Source: Iamia majanohamensis
GTDB lineage: Bacteria > Actinomycetota > Acidimicrobiia > Acidimicrobiales > Iamiaceae
NCBI RefSeq assembly: GCF_028532485.1
Contig: NZ_CP116942.1
Location: 3,844,001 to 3,908,000, forward strand
Length of the DNA stretch: 64,000 nt
Direction: 5' to 3'
Part shown: piece by piece, positions 51,391 to 59,526 of the stretch
Layout of the letters: every line of letters starts with the position of its first letter
How positions within the stretch are numbered: position 1 is the stretch's first letter
Made by a program: the position numbers and the translations under genes
Notes under the pieces: model-generated
What the model was told of the DNA's origin: nothing
The model's input: the letters and a program-made list of their open reading frames with translations, nothing else
The model's database searches: none

Positions 51391-52794
51391 TCAGGCGCCC
51401 TCCACCGCAGGCTCCACCGCGGGGGCGGTCCGGCGACGTCGGGCGCGCCCCACCGCCTCGCCCAGCGCCACCAGGGCGACGGCGGCCAGGATGCAGAGGG
51501 CCACGTCGGCCCCGGCGCGGTAGCGGGTCAGTCCGAAGTTGATGGCGGAGGTGGCGGTGGCGGCCACGCACAGCGCCACCAGCGGGCTCACCGGCAGGCC
51601 CCGGCGCCACAGGACCACGAGGCCGGCGGCCGCGAGCGGCAGCACCGCGCCGTGCACCCACCAGGCGGCGGTGGCGGGGAGCTCCGGGCGGCCCTCGTTG
51701 ACGAAGTCGGCCTCGGCCATCTGGGCCGGCTGGTAGAGCCCCCACATCCGGCCGATGCGGGCGAGGACGACCACCGGCAGGCGGCCCTCGTTGCCCCGGA
51801 TGAACTGCGAGGCGTCGTCGGCGAGGACGCGGTCGACCTCCGACTCGTCCTGGTCGAGGGCGTCGGCGCGGGTGTCGACCACCACCAGGTGGGCGTAGCC
51901 CCACTTCGAGGCGAGGAGGTGCCCGTAGTAGGTCTCGGGCTGGTTGGTCAGGTACAGGCTCTGGCCTGCGGTGGAGGTCATGGCCACCGGCTCCTCGAAG
52001 CGGACCGAGTTGTGGTGCAGCCACGGGGCCACGACCAGGACCGAGACCGCACCGGCCGCCGCCACCAGGCCGAGCCGGTCCCGGCGCCGCAGCCCGACCA
52101 TGCCGATGGCGAGGGGCACGGCCACCATCACGCCCAGCAGCGCGCCCTCGGTGCGCGACAGGGCCGCCAGCCCGCAGGCCAGCCCGAGCAGGCACGCCGA
52201 GAGCAGGGTGCGCCGGCACCAGAACCAATAGCCCGTCCACACCACGAGGGCGGCGAGGGGCTGGTAGATCGCCTCGGACATGAGCACCACGTCGTTGACC
52301 CAGAGGGCGGGGTGGAGCGCGACCAGGCCCCCGGCGACCAGCCCGACCCACCGCCCGCCGAGGCGTCGGCCCACGTCGGCCACCAGCACGAGGGTGACCA
52401 GCCCGAGCAGGGCCGACGCCCGCCGGAGGCCGGTGAAGCCGTCGACCCCCGCCGCGCTCCAGGCCGCCAGGTAGGTGGAGAAGGCGGGCGGGTGGTGGGC
52501 GGCCTGCTCGTCGAAGAACGTGTAGCCGTCCCCGTCGGCGAGGGCCTGGGCCACGACGACGTACTCGGTGCTGTCGGTCTCGACCGAGAAGCACCCGTCG
52601 GAGGAGGCCTGGCCCTCCTCGCAGGTCGGCACCTCCTGGATCACGGCCATCCGCACGCCGAGGCCGAGCAGGGCGATGGCTGCGAGCGGCAGCCAGAAGG
52701 TCCGCAGCAGGGTCCGCCGCCGGGTCCGGCGGGGGGCGGGGGCGGGGTCGGTCGCCTCCGGGTCGGGGGCGACCGGCGCGACCGTGGCGGTCAC
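51391..52794 (-). CDS. Multi-pass membrane glycosyltransferase (GT-C/PMT-like)
   Basis: A 467-residue protein with about ten membrane segments. The first periplasmic loop contains TDSTEYVVVAQALADGDG, with acidic residues where GT-C enzymes hold the catalytic aspartate, followed by HHPPAFSTYL. It resembles GT39/GT83 polyprenyl-phosphate-sugar transferases that glycosylate envelope polymers. The GTG overlaps the upstream lectin-like gene as GTGA. Confidence 0.78.
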   Translation of the reverse strand: MTATVAPVAPDPEATDPAPAPRRTRRRTLLRTFWLPLAAIALLGLGVRMAVIQEVPTCEEGQASSDGCFSVETDSTEYVVVAQALADGDGYTFFDEQAAHHPPAFSTYLAAWSAAGVDGFTGLRRASALLGLVTLVLVADVGRRLGGRWVGLVAGGLVALHPALWVNDVVLMSEAIYQPLAALVVWTGYWFWCRRTLLSACLLGLACGLAALSRTEGALLGVMVAVPLAIGMVGLRRRDRLGLVAAAGAVSVLVVAPWLHHNSVRFEEPVAMTSTAGQSLYLTNQPETYYGHLLASKWGYAHLVVVDTRADALDQDESEVDRVLADDASQFIRGNEGRLPVVVLARIGRMWGLYQPAQMAEADFVNEGRPELPATAAWWVHGAVLPLAAAGLVVLWRRGLPVSPLVALCVAATATSAINFGLTRYRAGADVALCILAAVALVALGEAVGRARRRRTAPAVEPAVEGA

Positions 52795-53755: not shown

Positions 53756-53974
53756 GTGGCTTCGACGTGGGTGAGGCGCGCCCGTCGCCTGGTGTCCGGC
53801 CCCGCCGGGGCCCGCCGTGCGGACGGTCCCTTCGCCAGCCTCGAGGCCCGCATCGTGCTCCTGCTGCTCGTCATCACCGCCCTGGCCGCCGTCCTCTGGA
53901 TCGGCGCCGAGCGCGGTCGCGACGACGGGCGGTCCGCGGGGCCCGCGGCAGCCGTCGTCGAGAGCGCCGGGTGA
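53756..53974 (+). CDS. Small single-pass membrane protein
   Basis: A 72-residue protein with a basic N-terminus and one membrane helix (IVLLLLVITALAAVLWIGA). It overlaps the acyltransferase gene as GTGA, so the two are coupled. No family is recognised; an accessory or assembly role for the acyltransferase is possible. Confidence 0.6.
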   Translation: MASTWVRRARRLVSGPAGARRADGPFASLEARIVLLLLVITALAAVLWIGAERGRDDGRSAGPAAAVVESAG

Positions 53975-55944
53975 CCGCCACCGCGACACCCGGTGCGGGG
54001 CGCGCCGGCCCGACGGGGACCTCCGGTGCGGTCCGGCTCCGGCGGCGGCCCGGGCCCGTCCACGAGCCCGCCCTCGACGGCCTGCGCGGCCTCGCGGTCG
54101 GGGCCGTGCTCCTCTTCCACGGGGGCTTCTCCTGGGCCCGGGGCGGCTACCTCGGCGTGTCGCTGTTCTTCACCCTGTCGGGCTTCCTCATCGCCCGACT
54201 GCTCCTGGCCGAGCACGACCGTCGGGGCCGGGTCGACCTGCGTCGCTTCTGGGTGCGGCGGGCCCGGCGCCTGTGGCCGGCGTCGCTCGCCACCCTCGCC
54301 TTCGTGATCGTCCTGGCCCGGCTGGCCTTCACCGGGGAGGAGGTGGCAGGGCTCCGGGGCGACCTCCTCGCCTCGTTGGCCCAGGTCGTCAACTGGCGCT
54401 TCATCCTCGAGGGACGCAGCTACGGCGACCTGTTCGCCTCGCCCTCGCTCGTCCAGCACTTCTGGTCGCTGGCCATCGAGGAGCAGATGTACCTGGTGGT
54501 GCCCCTGGTCCTGGTGGCCGCCCTGCGGCTCCGGCACCGGGCCGCGGTGGCCGTCGTCGTCGGCGGCCTCATGCTCACCTCCGTCCTGGCCACGGTCCTC
54601 GTGCAGGGCCCCACCGACGCCGACCGCATCTACTACGGCACCGACACCCGGGCCTTCGAGCTCCTCGCCGGCGTGATGCTCGCGGTGCTGGCCCGTGAGG
54701 CCCCCCGACTGGCCCGGCCCCGCGGCGTGCCGGTCCAGGTGGTCGGCGCCGTCGCCGCCGTCCTCTCGCTGGTGGCCTGGGCGACGGTCGCCCAGGACAC
54801 GCCGCTGCTCACCGAGGGCGGCCTGTGGCTCTACGCCCTGGTGTCGGTCGCCCTCATCCTCGGTTCCCGGGCCCCGGGCCCGCTCAACCGGGGCCTGTCC
54901 TGGCGCCCGCTGGAGGGCCTGGGCCGCATCAGCTACGGCGTGTACCTGATCCACTGGCCGATCTTCCTGTGGCTCTCGCCGGAGCGCCTGGGGGTCGGCG
55001 AGGTGGCCGCCTTCGTCATCGGGGTGGCGGTCACGATCAGCCTGGCCCTGCTGAGCCACCAGCTCCTCGAGCAGCCGGTGCGCGGCGGGCAGGCCCGCTG
55101 GCTCGGCACCGGGGCCCGGCCGTCGCTCGTCGCCGGTGCCGCCTTCGCGGTCGTGCTCGTGGCCATCCCGACCGTGGCCCCGCGGGGCTCGGTCGGCATC
55201 GACTTCGCCGCGGGGCAGGACACCATCGACGAGATCGCCGGCCAGGGCGGCACCGGAGGGCCGCGGGTGGCCTTCTACGGCGACAGCACCGCGCTCGCCG
55301 CCGCCCTCGGCATGGCCACCTGGTCGCGCGAGGGGGGCGAGGGCCAGATCACCTTCGAGGACGGCTGGACGGGCATCGGGTGCGGGCTCGTCACCAGCGG
55401 CAAGATCGAGTACATGGGGAAGGTCAACCCCATCCCGAGCCGCTGCGCCGACCGCGGGGCCGAGATCGCCGAGACGGTCGACGACATCGACCTGGCCATC
55501 CTCATGGCCGGTGCGTGGGAGGCCGCGGCCATCCAGCTGCCGGGCCGGGAGGAGTTCCAGACCATCGAGGACCCCGAGCTGCACGCCCGCTACGAGCAGG
55601 AGCTGGAGGGCCTCCACGACCTGCTCACCAGCGGCGGGGCCACCATGGCGTTCGTGCTCATCCCCGACCTCGAGGCCGGCGTCCGGGGCGGCCGCTCGCC
55701 GGCCGAGCCCTTCCCCGAGTCCGACCCCGAGCGGGTCGAGCTCTACAACGACATGGGTCGCCGCCTGGCCGAGGAGCACGACGACGTGGTGCTCATCGAC
55801 CTCCGGGGGTGGATGGCCGCCCAGGACGGCGGGATGCTCGACCGGGACCTCCGGGCCGACGGCATCCACCTCTCCACCGAGACCGCCACCACCGTGGCCG
55901 GGGCCTTCCTCGGCCCGGCCGCCATCGCCGCCGCCGAGCGGTAG
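53971..55944 (+). CDS. OafA-type membrane acyltransferase with C-terminal SGNH domain
   Basis: A 657-residue protein. Residues 30-400 are an acyltransferase-3 domain with ten or more helices, the catalytic histidine in ALDGLRGLAVGAVLLFHGG, FFTLSGFLIARLLLAEH and RRARRLWPA. The outer C-terminal domain is an SGNH hydrolase fold, with the serine in AFYGDSTALA and the DxxH in LRADGIHLS. Members O-acetylate surface polysaccharides. Its position between glycosyltransferase and lectin-like genes supports an envelope role. Confidence 0.88.
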   Translation: MTATATPGAGRAGPTGTSGAVRLRRRPGPVHEPALDGLRGLAVGAVLLFHGGFSWARGGYLGVSLFFTLSGFLIARLLLAEHDRRGRVDLRRFWVRRARRLWPASLATLAFVIVLARLAFTGEEVAGLRGDLLASLAQVVNWRFILEGRSYGDLFASPSLVQHFWSLAIEEQMYLVVPLVLVAALRLRHRAAVAVVVGGLMLTSVLATVLVQGPTDADRIYYGTDTRAFELLAGVMLAVLAREAPRLARPRGVPVQVVGAVAAVLSLVAWATVAQDTPLLTEGGLWLYALVSVALILGSRAPGPLNRGLSWRPLEGLGRISYGVYLIHWPIFLWLSPERLGVGEVAAFVIGVAVTISLALLSHQLLEQPVRGGQARWLGTGARPSLVAGAAFAVVLVAIPTVAPRGSVGIDFAAGQDTIDEIAGQGGTGGPRVAFYGDSTALAAALGMATWSREGGEGQITFEDGWTGIGCGLVTSGKIEYMGKVNPIPSRCADRGAEIAETVDDIDLAILMAGAWEAAAIQLPGREEFQTIEDPELHARYEQELEGLHDLLTSGGATMAFVLIPDLEAGVRGGRSPAEPFPESDPERVELYNDMGRRLAEEHDDVVLIDLRGWMAAQDGGMLDRDLRADGIHLSTETATTVAGAFLGPAAIAAAER

Positions 55945-55961: not shown

Positions 55962-57053
55962 CTAGCCGGGCACCAGGAGGCGGACGTCGTCGAAGATGGC
56001 GACCTCGTCGCCCCGGGCCATGGTGAGACCGACCCGCTGGCGCCCCTCCGCCGGGGGCAGCTGGTCGTAGGTCGCGGCCACGGCGCCGTCGAAGAGCAGC
56101 TCGACCTGGGTGCCGGTGAGGTTGATCCCGAGCGCGGGCATGCCGTCCTCGGTCACCGCCAGGCCGGCGTCGAACACCGTCCGGCGCTCACCGTCGGCCA
56201 CCTCGACCAGGCCGATGGTGCCGAACTCGGGGGCCGTGACCCAGGCCCAGTAGTTGTCCACGTCGGCGACCCGGAAGGCGATGCCGGAGCCGTTGGTCCG
56301 TCCCCGCAGCTCGACCTGCATGCGGACGTCGGCCGACCCCGGGTCGAAGGCGACCAGGTTGCCGGGCTCGGACTCCGCCCCCGCACCGGTCACCTGGCCC
56401 TCCTCGATGGCCCAGTCGCCGGCCAGGACCTCCCAGGGCCCCACGCCCGGGACCTCGCCCAGGTCGGGGCCGGGGCGCTCGAAGTCGTCGAGGACGACCC
56501 CCTCGCCGGCCAGGGCCGGGTCCAGCCCGTCGCCCCGTGCCGCCACGCGCGGGTCCTCGCCCAGGGTGGCCTCGGGCGCGGTGGTGGACGTCGGGTTGGT
56601 GCTCACCGCCACGACGTCGTCGCCGTCACCACCGTCGTCCCCGCCGTCGTCGCCGCCGAGGGCGAGCACGGCCGCGACGACCAGGGCGACCACGAGGACC
56701 CCGGCCGCCACCAGGACCGTGGGGTTGGCCCCCCGGAGCCGCGACCCGCCCTCGCGGGGCGGCGCGCCGGCGAAGGCGTCGTCGTCGGGCGGGACGAAGC
56801 GGGGCCCGCCGTCCGCCGCACGGGCGCGCGGCCCGGATCGATCCTCGACGGGCGGGGCGGGCGCCTCGGCGCCGTCCTCGGGCGGGTCGACCTCGTAGCC
56901 GAGGGCGTCGAGGTCGGCGACCAGCGTGGCCTCGTCGGCCGGTGAGCCCAGCTCGGCGAGGATCTCCCCCAGCTCGGCGAGGTCGATGTCGGGACGGCGC
57001 TCCAGCACCACCTCGATCGCCCGTCGACGGGCCTCCTGGTCGGACCGCTGCAT
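55962..57053 (-). CDS. HTH-like/TM/lectin-like membrane protein (2 of 3)
   Basis: A 363-residue single-pass protein. Residues 5-56 (ARRRAIEVVLERRPDIDL, then ELGEILAELG and DEATLVADLDALGYEV) match the spacing of the ArgR winged-helix domain, though the recognition helix is acidic. An acidic linker precedes the membrane helix (112-134). The ectodomain from 186 (VVLDDFERPG to VAIFDDVRLLVPG) is lectin-like. GGAGAGG lies before the ATG, with TAGCCT 27 bases upstream. Confidence 0.6.
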   Translation of the reverse strand: MQRSDQEARRRAIEVVLERRPDIDLAELGEILAELGSPADEATLVADLDALGYEVDPPEDGAEAPAPPVEDRSGPRARAADGGPRFVPPDDDAFAGAPPREGGSRLRGANPTVLVAAGVLVVALVVAAVLALGGDDGGDDGGDGDDVVAVSTNPTSTTAPEATLGEDPRVAARGDGLDPALAGEGVVLDDFERPGPDLGEVPGVGPWEVLAGDWAIEEGQVTGAGAESEPGNLVAFDPGSADVRMQVELRGRTNGSGIAFRVADVDNYWAWVTAPEFGTIGLVEVADGERRTVFDAGLAVTEDGMPALGINLTGTQVELLFDGAVAATYDQLPPAEGRQRVGLTMARGDEVAIFDDVRLLVPG

Positions 57054-57128
57054 CGCACCCTCTCCGTCGTGGTCGGCGGCGAGGCTACCGCCGGCCCCGC
57101 CCGGGGTCGCCCCTCGCCTGCCGGGGGG

Positions 57129-58139
57129 TCAGCCGTAGGTGACCTGCAGGTCGTCGAGCGCCGGGGGCTCGTCGGTGCCGAGGGCCGCCAGCCCGACCCC
57201 GACCCGGTCGGTGGGTCCGTCGTCCTCGACGGTGGCGACCACCTCGCCGTCGACCAGGAGCTCCAGCTCGGCGCCGCGCGCCCGGACGCCCAGGACGACC
57301 GGGCTGCCGACCGTCGCGTCGACCTCCTCGACCACCGTCTGCTGGGCGTCGGTCACCCGCACGAGGCGGGCGCCGGACCCCTCGGGCCCCAGCACCCAGG
57401 CCAGGTAGTTGCCGTCGTCGAGGAGGCGGAACGCCAGGCCCGCACCGGGGCTGGCGGTGGGCAGGGTGACCCTGGCGTCCAGGTCGGGCCCGGGGGCGGC
57501 GAAGAAGGTGACCGACTCGTCCTCGCCCGGAGGCCCGGAGCGGGCCACCCCCTCCGACGCCAGCCAGATCCCCCGCCCCGGCGACCACTCGGCCTCGCCG
57601 CCCGGGTCGGGCAGGGGTCCGTCGTCGTCGAAGGTGAGCGACACGTCGGGGGCGAGGTCCCCCAGGACGACCTCGCCGTCCGGCGTCGTCTCGAACGTGA
57701 TCACCTCGGGGCTGGTGGCCGTGCTGCGGGTCGCCTCGCCGTCGCCGCCGCCGCCGTCGTCGTCGCGCAGCAGCCCCACCACCGCGACCACCACGGCGGC
57801 CAGGGCCAGCAGGGCGGCCACGCCCCAGAGGACGGGCACCAGCCGTCCGCGGCCCGGGCGCCCCTCGTCCCCCGGCGCGCCCTCGGCGTCGGTGCCGTCC
57901 GCCCCGGCGACCTGGTCCTGGTCCTCCTCGACGACCTCGGACTCCTCGTCGACCTCGAACCCGAGGGCGTCGAGGTCCGCGAGCAGGACGTCCGGGGCGA
58001 CGTCGATGCCGAGGCGGCCCAGCACGTGGTGCAGCTCGTCGAGGGTGATGTCGGGTCGCCGGGTGACGGCCAGGTCGACGACGCGTCGCCGGGCCGCGAC
58101 GGGGTCCTGGTCCTCGTGGTCACCCTCCACGGGGCCCAT
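57129..58139 (-). CDS. HTH-like/TM/lectin-like membrane protein (3 of 3)
   Basis: A 336-residue paralogue of the protein at 55962. Residues 14-63 form the same ArgR-like helical unit (RRRVVDLAVTRRPDITLDEL, DVLLADLDALGFEV), then an acidic linker, a membrane helix (100-124) and a lectin-like ectodomain ending PPALDDLQVTYG. The ATG lies inside the end of folK (20-bp overlap), so it is transcribed with the folate genes. Function unknown. Confidence 0.6.
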   Translation of the reverse strand: MGPVEGDHEDQDPVAARRRVVDLAVTRRPDITLDELHHVLGRLGIDVAPDVLLADLDALGFEVDEESEVVEEDQDQVAGADGTDAEGAPGDEGRPGRGRLVPVLWGVAALLALAAVVVAVVGLLRDDDGGGGDGEATRSTATSPEVITFETTPDGEVVLGDLAPDVSLTFDDDGPLPDPGGEAEWSPGRGIWLASEGVARSGPPGEDESVTFFAAPGPDLDARVTLPTASPGAGLAFRLLDDGNYLAWVLGPEGSGARLVRVTDAQQTVVEEVDATVGSPVVLGVRARGAELELLVDGEVVATVEDDGPTDRVGVGLAALGTDEPPALDDLQVTYG

Positions 58140-58644
58140 CTTCCCCGCCCGGGGACAGGTCCGTCGAGCCCAGGGGACCGACCCGGTGGACGGGCTGGTC
58201 CGCGGGGGCCGGCGTGGCCGGTACCAGGTCGGGCGCCACCTCGGCCAGGGGGACCGTGACGAAGGCCCGGTCGTCCATGCGGGGGTGGGGCACGGTGAGC
58301 TCGGGGGTGGCGTGGCGCTCGCCGTCGATCCAGAGCACGTCGACGTCGAGGGTGCGGGGCCCCCACCGCTCGGTGCGCACCCGCCCGGCCTCGGCCTCCA
58401 GCTCCTGGCACCGGCCCAGCACCGCCGGCGCGGGGCGGTCGGTGGCCACCACCAGCACCAGGTTGAGGAAGGGTCCCTGCTCGGGACCGCCCACCGGGGC
58501 CGTCTCGTACACGTCGGACACGGCGACGACCTCGTCGCCCCACCCCGCCACCGCGGCCCGGAGGTGGGCCCGGCGGTCGCCCAGGTTGGACCCGACGCCG
58601 AGCACCACCCGGCGGACCGGCGGCCCCGCGGCGGCGTCGGTCAC
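58120..58644 (-). CDS. folK: 2-amino-4-hydroxy-6-hydroxymethyldihydropteridine pyrophosphokinase
   Basis: A 174-residue HPPK that transfers pyrophosphate from ATP in folate synthesis. It has VVLGVGSNLGDRRAHLRAAV, VYETAPVGGPEQGPFLNLVL and the signature RWGPRTLDVDVLWIDG with PHPRMDDRAFV. It overlaps folB as GTGA. Confidence 0.95.
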   Translation of the reverse strand: MTDAAAGPPVRRVVLGVGSNLGDRRAHLRAAVAGWGDEVVAVSDVYETAPVGGPEQGPFLNLVLVVATDRPAPAVLGRCQELEAEAGRVRTERWGPRTLDVDVLWIDGERHATPELTVPHPRMDDRAFVTVPLAEVAPDLVPATPAPADQPVHRVGPLGSTDLSPGGEDGPRGG

Positions 58645-59018
58645 CCGCGACGGCGGGTGATGCGCACCCCGGAGGTGGTCAGCACCTGGGCCACGGGCGG
58701 CCGGAGCTTGCGGACCGACACGGTCACCCCCACCACCCGGTCGTCGGAGAGGATCAGCTCGGCGATGCGCTCGGCCAGCCGCTCGAGGAGGCGGAACCGC
58801 TCGGTGGTGATGAGGCGCTCGACCAGCTCGCACACCGCGCCGTAGTCGACGGTGTCGTCGAGGTCGTCGGACGCCCCGGCCGGTCCCAGGTCGGCCTCGA
58901 TGTCGACGTCGACCTCGAGGGGCTGGGCCCGGTCCTGCTCCTCGGGCAGCGCCCCGCAGATGCCCGGGGCGGTGAGGCCCCGGAGCTCGATCAGGTCGGG
59001 CGCGTCGGGCTCAGCCAC
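58641..59018 (-). CDS. folB: Dihydroneopterin aldolase
   Basis: A 125-residue DHNA that makes 6-hydroxymethyl-dihydropterin. It has IELRGLTAPGICGALPEEQ, DDTVDYGAVCELVERLI and the C-terminal VTVSVRKLRPPV. Its GTG start lies inside the end of the upstream pseudophosphatase gene (8-bp overlap). Confidence 0.94.
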   Translation of the reverse strand: MAEPDAPDLIELRGLTAPGICGALPEEQDRAQPLEVDVDIEADLGPAGASDDLDDTVDYGAVCELVERLITTERFRLLERLAERIAELILSDDRVVGVTVSVRKLRPPVAQVLTTSGVRITRRRG

Positions 59019-59526
59019 GGGACCCGGGCACGGCGGGGGCGAGGGCGATGAGCTCGCGCCCCACCGGGCCGATCTGGCGGGCCAGCATGCGCTCCACCAG
59101 CATCGTGGCCTTGGGCGCCTCGGGGACCAGGCCCGACCAGATCACGTAGGCGGCCACCAGCCCGGCGATGCGGTCGCCGAGCTCCTCGCCGTGGAGCAGC
59201 ACCTTCTCGCCCTGGCCGAGGAGCTGGTCGACCTCGGGGAAGAGCTGGGCCATGAGCTCGGCCGCGTCCTCCTGGGACCGCATGGGGCGGTGCAGCCAGG
59301 CCACCTCCAGCTCGGTGTAGTTGTGCAGGTTGCTGTTCGCCGGGATGATCGAGATGACCTTGGTGAAGCCCTGCTCCCGGACCCAGATGATCTCCTCCTG
59401 GCGGCGCACCCTGCGGTGGTTGGCGCCGTAGCCGCCGGGCCGCTCCGACACCGCGAAGCGGTCGCGGATGACCCATGAGAAGTTGCGGGGGCGGATGCCC
59501 TGGGCCCACTTGCCCTTCATCCCCAT
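59011..59526 (-). CDS. Tyrosine/dual-specificity phosphatase-like protein lacking the catalytic cysteine
   Basis: A 171-residue protein. RNFSWVIRDRFAVSERPGGY and FTKVISIIPAN fit the start of small dual-specificity phosphatases. The P-loop position, residues 112-119, reads HGEELGDR followed by IAGLVAAYVIW: the CX5R arginine and flanks remain, but the nucleophilic cysteine is Gly113. It is therefore a probable pseudophosphatase that binds rather than cleaves phosphate. It lies between folP and folB, overlapping folB. ATG 59526 or 59520. Confidence 0.6.
   Translation of the reverse strand: MGMKGKWAQGIRPRNFSWVIRDRFAVSERPGGYGANHRRVRRQEEIIWVREQGFTKVISIIPANSNLHNYTELEVAWLHRPMRSQEDAAELMAQLFPEVDQLLGQGEKVLLHGEELGDRIAGLVAAYVIWSGLVPEAPKATMLVERMLARQIGPVGRELIALAPAVPGSRG

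Follow-up and report, generated by a model that had tools for sequence, protein, structure and literature searches.

The window analysed here, a stretch of 64,000 nucleotides (G000:C1:3844001-3908000) from a genome of 4.58 Mb, has a G+C content of 0.70-0.79 in 2-kb steps and carries three related genes, P0001, P0002, and P0003, together with an acyltransferase gene, a glycosyltransferase gene, and genes of a folate-pantothenate operon:

55962..57053, minus strand: P0001, 363 residues, with an N-terminal unit (N-unit), a linker, a transmembrane helix, and a predicted CBM66-like ectodomain
56886..57035, minus strand: winged-helix-like N-unit of P0001 (residues 7-56)
56655..56717, minus strand: membrane helix of P0001 (residues 113-133)
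55968..56495, minus strand: ectodomain of P0001
57129..58139, minus strand: P0002, 336 residues, with the same architecture as P0001; shares 20 bases with the end of the folK ORF
57951..58094, minus strand: winged-helix-like N-unit of P0002 (residues 16-63)
57771..57833, minus strand: membrane helix of P0002 (residues 103-123)
57135..57644, minus strand: ectodomain of P0002
52791..53648, minus strand: P0003, 285 residues, with helix and ectodomain and without an N-unit; its stop codon and the GTG start codon of PMT_2 overlap (GTGA)
53971..55944, plus strand: AT3-SGNH acyltransferase with a putative start codon; Acyl_transf_3 at 1.1e-30 and SGNH at 8.3e-7 for 53992-55944
51391..52794, minus strand: GT-C glycosyltransferase overlapping P0003; PMT_2 at 9.3e-10
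58120..58833, minus strand: folK-containing ORF upstream of P0002; HPPK at 6.1e-36 over residues 77-201, the true start probably lying further in

The minus-strand order is folP, a gene for 171 residues, folB, folK, P0002, and P0001, with 75 bases between P0002 and P0001 and a third-codon GC of 0.96-0.97 in both of these ORFs. The AT3-SGNH gene is flanked by P0003, which is divergent, and by P0001, which is convergent and 17 bases away, so that P0001 and the AT3-SGNH gene, being on opposite strands, do not form one operon. Past the P0003/PMT_2 pair lie a DUF2520 gene and then panC and panD (folP, panC, and panD were named by eye). The conserved 171-residue protein between folP and folB (59011-59526, minus strand) matches a DSP-phosphatase at E 0.056, below the cut-off, and has HGEELGDR at the position of the phosphatase motif HCxxGxxR, a variant also present in loci of G016 and G012; from its sequence it looks like a pseudophosphatase.

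The earlier note had described P0001 and P0002 as adjacent minus-strand paralogues built from an N-unit, a linker, one membrane helix, and a lectin-like outer domain, and this anatomy is borne out by the ORFs, the structure models, and Foldseek; the reduction of the third relative, at 52791, to ectodomain and helix likewise stands. P0001 and P0002 each have a single hydrophobic helix, and the net charges of its 15-residue flanks (+2/-7 in P0001 and +1/-3 in P0002, with 0/0 in P0003) indicate an N-in topology for P0001 and P0002 only. The P0001 ectodomain model consists mostly of strands and is of moderate confidence (pLDDT about 52-84 between residues 231 and 340, below 50 before residue 231), and its best Foldseek match is CBM66 (E 1.6e-6, probability 1.00, TM to target 0.62), followed by galectins, GH43 accessory domains, thrombospondin-N, LG domains, SHBG, and neurexin. 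The ectodomain is thus probably a concanavalin-like beta sandwich of the CBM66 type, its modelled fold resembling CBM66 (PDB 4b1m, 4azz) and the galectin/LG folds. Unlike CBM66, proteins of the P0001 type are membrane-anchored, and a search of PDB sequences with the ectodomain returned no CBM66 row. None of P0001-P0003 has a Pfam match above cut-off, the top row for member 1 being 3keto-disac_hyd (E 0.0054, below cut-off), and the sole NCBIfam row falls far short of its cut-off. P0003 weakly resembles, at a sub-threshold E of 0.027 (best 0.0073), the N-terminal domain of SsfX3, in which a beta sandwich is attached to an SGNH-type acyltransferase. We identified neither a glycan-contacting nor a catalytic residue in the ectodomain.

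The genomic context of the ectodomain carries most of our interpretation. With a profile built from 15 ectodomains, matches at E <= 1e-5 came from 16 genomes out of the 296 searched in the class; of the 396 searched in the phylum, 14 had matches at 1e-6. Outside the class this added 11 new places, all of them weak, the best reaching 1.8e-13; nine of them lie in frames of at least 730 residues, and none has an AT3 gene within about 1.5 kb. We call a locus strong at E <= 1e-20, a line drawn after the data had been seen, and merged genes of the same neighbourhood, which left 23 loci; low-complexity matches to the linker and helix were kept out of the count. An AT3 gene adjoins or is fused to the ectodomain gene at 16 of these 23 loci (the window, G000 384 kb, G002 3958 kb, G002 3975 kb, G027, G184, G040, G209 549-552 kb, G198 C151, G198 C211, G367, G259, G369, G325, G284, and G268), and in 15 the two share a strand or are fused, the one opposite-strand case being the window. 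The seven loci without an adjoining AT3 are G000 405 kb, G015, G016, G064, G265, G226, and G041, the last judged from 1.5-kb flanks. At 3% per locus, the binomial value for at least 16 of 23 is 8.6e-20, which is not a true probability because the loci share ancestry. Among the weaker loci, counted without G184 C182 and G209 320 kb, AT3 adjoins one of ten (G209 886 kb) and is absent from the stretch examined in G209 328 kb, G000 719 kb, G255, G307, G350, G367 C247, G022, G026, and G162, giving 17 of 33 overall. The coupling extends to four-base overlaps between the ectodomain gene and the AT3 gene (G027, G184, G209, and G198) and to single ORFs that hold an AT3 and two ectodomains (842 residues in G284 and 839 in G325). 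One further G002 ORF (L019:7928-10396) contains two tandem AT3 domains and adjoins an ectodomain gene and another AT3, and a phage-tail-like protein of G162 (L028) carries a distant copy of the ectodomain.

The pairing is one-sided, in that AT3 genes number 2-23 per genome (18 genomes) and many have no ectodomain neighbour; G226 has 23 of them, and its sole ectodomain match lies in an 8-kb stretch that is free of AT3. Some members also stand beside other envelope enzymes, namely an AftD-type arabinofuranosyltransferase in G002 and G265 and a PMT_2 enzyme in the window (P0003) and at G000 719 kb, where the sixth ectodomain gene of G000 (L201:3278-4777, E 5.5e-18) is placed beside PMT_2 as P0003 is. 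It is with such neighbours in mind, and with the domain occurring in the phage-like G162 protein and in large ORFs outside the class, that one could regard these proteins as general surface lectins or scaffolds with a vestigial N-terminus, linked to AT3 only through shared envelope-polysaccharide loci. We consider this quite unlikely, since the AT3 fusions and gene overlaps exceed loose clustering and since invariant columns are most concentrated in the N-unit (15 within residues 1-52 of P0001 vs 26 in residues 181-356).

A tree of AT3 domains (40 rows, 21 from partner loci and 19 solo, one of the 20 solo stretches taken having given no row) is divided by a branch with support 98/97 into a side on which 18 of 20 rows are partners and a side on which 17 of 20 are solo. 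Partner rows stand on either side of this branch, which places the pairing on two AT3 lineages; the AT3-SGNH of the window and that of the 384-kb locus are both on the mostly solo side. The partner-rich side consists mostly of standalone AT3, a split by type that is partly due to sampling, as the solo rows came from the top matches listed and are mostly long frames of AT3-SGNH size. Four rows labelled as partners (L019_2, L019_3, L200_2, and L189_2) come from a second AT3 domain or an additional copy at the same locus, and L189_2 does not adjoin the ectodomain gene, so that the labels, like the sampling, restrict what can be read from the split.

The N-unit was characterized in two AlphaFold2 models. 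In that of P0001, for which the input was an alignment of the three window proteins, helices span residues 2-19, 25-34, and 41-50 with a pLDDT of about 90 over residues 11-50, and in the second, covering residues 1-70 of P0002, they span residues 13-27, 33-42, and 49-59 with a pLDDT of 81-90. The earlier note's view of this unit as a winged helix therefore survives in its helical part: the three-helix core of the fold is predicted in both proteins, but the beta wing is absent from both predictions, no strands following helix 3, and a possible wing remnant is seen, by eye, in G016. Comparison of the N-unit by VIA-align returns mainly helix-turn-helix domains (PadR, Z 8.1; sigma54, 7.9; also the FapR DNA-binding domain), including the AhrC N-domain (Z 7.4, rmsd 2.9, 58 aligned) and M. 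tuberculosis ArgR (6.8). The Foldseek E-values are 0.48 or worse, with unrelated folds such as Slx4 and troponin C also among the matches. By itself this fold match is weak, because VIA-align rates such Z values as common and because of the Foldseek values.

The relationship to ArgR rests more firmly on profiles. An ArgR profile made from 30 of the 40 ArgR matches in relatives aligns to residues 7-52 of P0001 without a gap through the recognition helix (17.5 bits), and scores 8.9, 3.8, and 0.6 bits against the other three N-units. In the profile-profile comparison (hhalign), N-unit and ArgR match with P 8.9e-6 and probability 64 over 65 columns, and the score of 30.7 compares with a mean of 4.0 and a maximum of 13.2 after column shuffling, so that none of the 198 shuffles scored (200 were made) reached it. 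The ArgR-like spacing noticed earlier thus holds up, and the sequence comparisons support the view that the N-unit is a winged-helix-like domain resembling that of ArgR beyond chance. Across 198 genomes of the order, with E-values calculated for each genome separately and only some of the candidates scored, the N-unit profile matched ArgR in G033 (E 2.8e-5) and in G040 (E 0.0046) and no further known ArgR place among the matches listed. A PDB sequence search with P0001 had no match up to E 1, and with the N-unit profile all rows were weak: designed proteins came first, and M. tuberculosis ArgR stood at E 0.4; PF01316, the N-domain of the arginine repressor, returned no row for any of the four N-units at a maximum E of 10, where the HMMER filters drop weak ones. 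The match in G102 was not interpretable.

Stronger matches in the order belong to a family of coiled-coil winged-helix proteins, in G110 (E 6.9e-7 and 1.6e-6) and also in G196, G141, and G171. This family, not ArgR, is the best profile relative of the N-unit (P 1.8e-7), a score that is biased because the family was found by the N-unit search. In its members at L136, L137, L138, L140, and L141 the winged helix is seemingly complete (RVxRGxY); the members from G141 and G171 are small and have a coiled coil, the others being two from G110 and one from G196, and one member has a weak HARE-HTH match (E 0.0073).

The likeness of the N-units to the ArgR/AhrC N-domain (PF01316) is hence one of helical core and gapless alignment, and what sets them apart is the missing SR pair, predicted wing, and Pfam match, with linker, helix, and ectodomain in place of the arginine-binding C-terminal domain, for which there is no Pfam match. 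Specifically, the SR of the ArgR SRD motif is present in 30 of 30 ArgR proteins of relatives and in none of the four N-units, which have V or L and then A or E. CadC and ToxR are membrane-bound one-component transcription factors, and P0001 and P0002 might by analogy hold a tethered winged helix on DNA while the ectodomain reads a glycan. The helical core, the VIA-align matches to AhrC, PadR, sigma54, and FapR, and the relation to a family with a complete winged helix would suit such a role, which is nevertheless distinctly improbable given the loss of SR in all four units, the unpredicted wing, a net charge of the unit between -9 and +1, and the Foldseek values. Pfam rows up to E 1 for P0001-P0003 include no Trans_reg_C, the OmpR-type winged helix. 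A sensor acting on DNA, as had been suggested for this locus, is not supported, and the ectodomain context speaks for glycan O-acylation rather than gene regulation. We dropped DNA binding as the leading reading on account of the SR pair and wing and not of helix acidity: the acidic recognition helix, held against DNA binding in the earlier note, says little, because the helix at this position in the 30 ArgR proteins of relatives is slightly acidic as well (mean net charge -1.8).

Among 24 genomes of the family and 198 of the order, the combination of N-unit, helix, and ectodomain occurs only in G000 (two copies), G015, and G016, all of one genus, so that relatives with this architecture do exist, narrowly, among the genomes searched. 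The P0002 orthologues of G015 and G016 lie, by eye, between folK and DUF2520-panC. In G014, of the same genus, folK runs in frame into a DUF2520-type protein; folK was recognised by motif at 15 of 30 loci, and a DUF2520-type ORF, recognised by eye, follows it directly in G013, G002, G005, G040, and G036. As folK and DUF2520 adjoin in G014 and these five others, the gene looks to have been inserted into the folate-pantothenate operon within the genus, and then, to judge from the sequences, duplicated in G000. The N-unit of P0001 groups with the P0002 type, and its ectodomain is nearest to the AT3-coupled gene of G000 (43% identity vs 36% to P0002); the tree groups the four N-unit bearers with support 58/40, and both a domain swap and a loss are compatible with this. 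The architecture is real, narrow, and new, and is built on a wider pairing of ectodomain and acyltransferase that has the better support.

Based on these data, we propose that P0001, P0002, and P0003 are members of one family, in which a single membrane helix carries a CBM66-like domain on the outside, and that in this class of bacteria the ectodomain would act on the extracytoplasmic side as a partner of the membrane enzymes that O-acylate glycans, mainly AT3, most likely by keeping the acceptor glycan close to the exit of the acyl channel. What the data show are the predicted folds and the adjacency, overlaps, and fusions of the genes; the outside position of the ectodomain, its binding of glycan, its contact with AT3, and its presentation of the acceptor are inferred from these. 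The N-unit of P0001 and P0002 would then be a protein-protein docking module through which the partner is linked to a cytosolic component and which does not bind DNA, a role suggested solely by the loss of the SR pair and wing. The helix-turn-helix of RodZ, which docks MreB, is a precedent for such a function. We give about an even chance to the reading in which these proteins, anchored in the membrane, bind glycan as partners of envelope O-acyltransferases and use the N-unit as a docking module. Since relatives of their ectodomain often adjoin or are fused with acyltransferases, P0001 and P0002 are probably helpers of these enzymes rather than DNA switches. P0001 is the likelier partner in acylation, as it adjoins the AT3-SGNH gene, and we give this role about an even chance; the chance is lower for P0002, with orthologues that lack an AT3 in their vicinity and a less certain role in the folate operon.

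The arrangement also invites comparison with RsgI, described in PMC12203970 as a glycan-reading ectodomain joined through one helix to a cytosolic regulator, and a glycan sensor with a cytosolic partner would accordingly not be the novelty that the earlier note had seen in it. In an RsgI-like mechanism, a ligand of the ectodomain would cause a conformational change or intramembrane cleavage that frees the N-unit from a cytosolic partner. The order of parts is that of RsgI in that account (PMC12203970), and the N-unit is conserved (44-50% identity across three genomes) though it is without DNA features. Pfam rows up to E 1 for P0001-P0003 include no RsgI-type N-domain. Our searches did not match the cytosolic domain of P0001 and P0002 to that of RsgI, no anti-sigma domain is among the Pfam rows, the neighbours that Pfam could name (FolK, FolB, DUF2520, AT3-SGNH, and PMT_2) include no sigma or sigI gene, and the ectodomain family resides at acyltransferase loci. 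We therefore regard sensing of this kind as unlikely.

The acyltransferase partner that we favour has its closest functional parallels in the SGNH domain of AT3-SGNH enzymes and in PatB of PatA-PatB, which are likewise extracytoplasmic acyltransferase partners, fused or separate; the ectodomain differs from these in being a CBM-like beta sandwich with no SGNH match. Two papers and a review do not settle whether standalone AT3 require a partner (PMC9558356, PMC7448272, PMC9833829). In the open-licence literature, preprints aside, we found no LamG- or CBM66-like AT3 partner and no ArgR-like membrane protein. The most specific form of our proposal, in which the CBM66-like single-helix protein is the non-SGNH, acceptor-presenting partner of a class of standalone AT3 enzymes and, in P0001 and P0002, a repurposed repressor-type winged helix couples it to a cytosolic protein, is tentative and on balance somewhat doubtful. 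If true, it would be a new transmembrane arrangement that couples an envelope machine to a cytosolic protein, the N-unit being a repressor fold that was transferred to a membrane protein and lost the residues that read DNA, and a beta-sandwich partner that is well defined and in some cases fused would make the question of AT3 partners testable. At the G064 locus (L197:1275-4664), where no AT3 adjoins, an MBOAT acyltransferase (PF03062, 3.9e-18) is encoded on the opposite strand at a distance of two ORFs. By eye, the intervening ORF resembles SGNH or AlgX proteins, although Pfam returned nothing up to 1e-4 for the scanned part.
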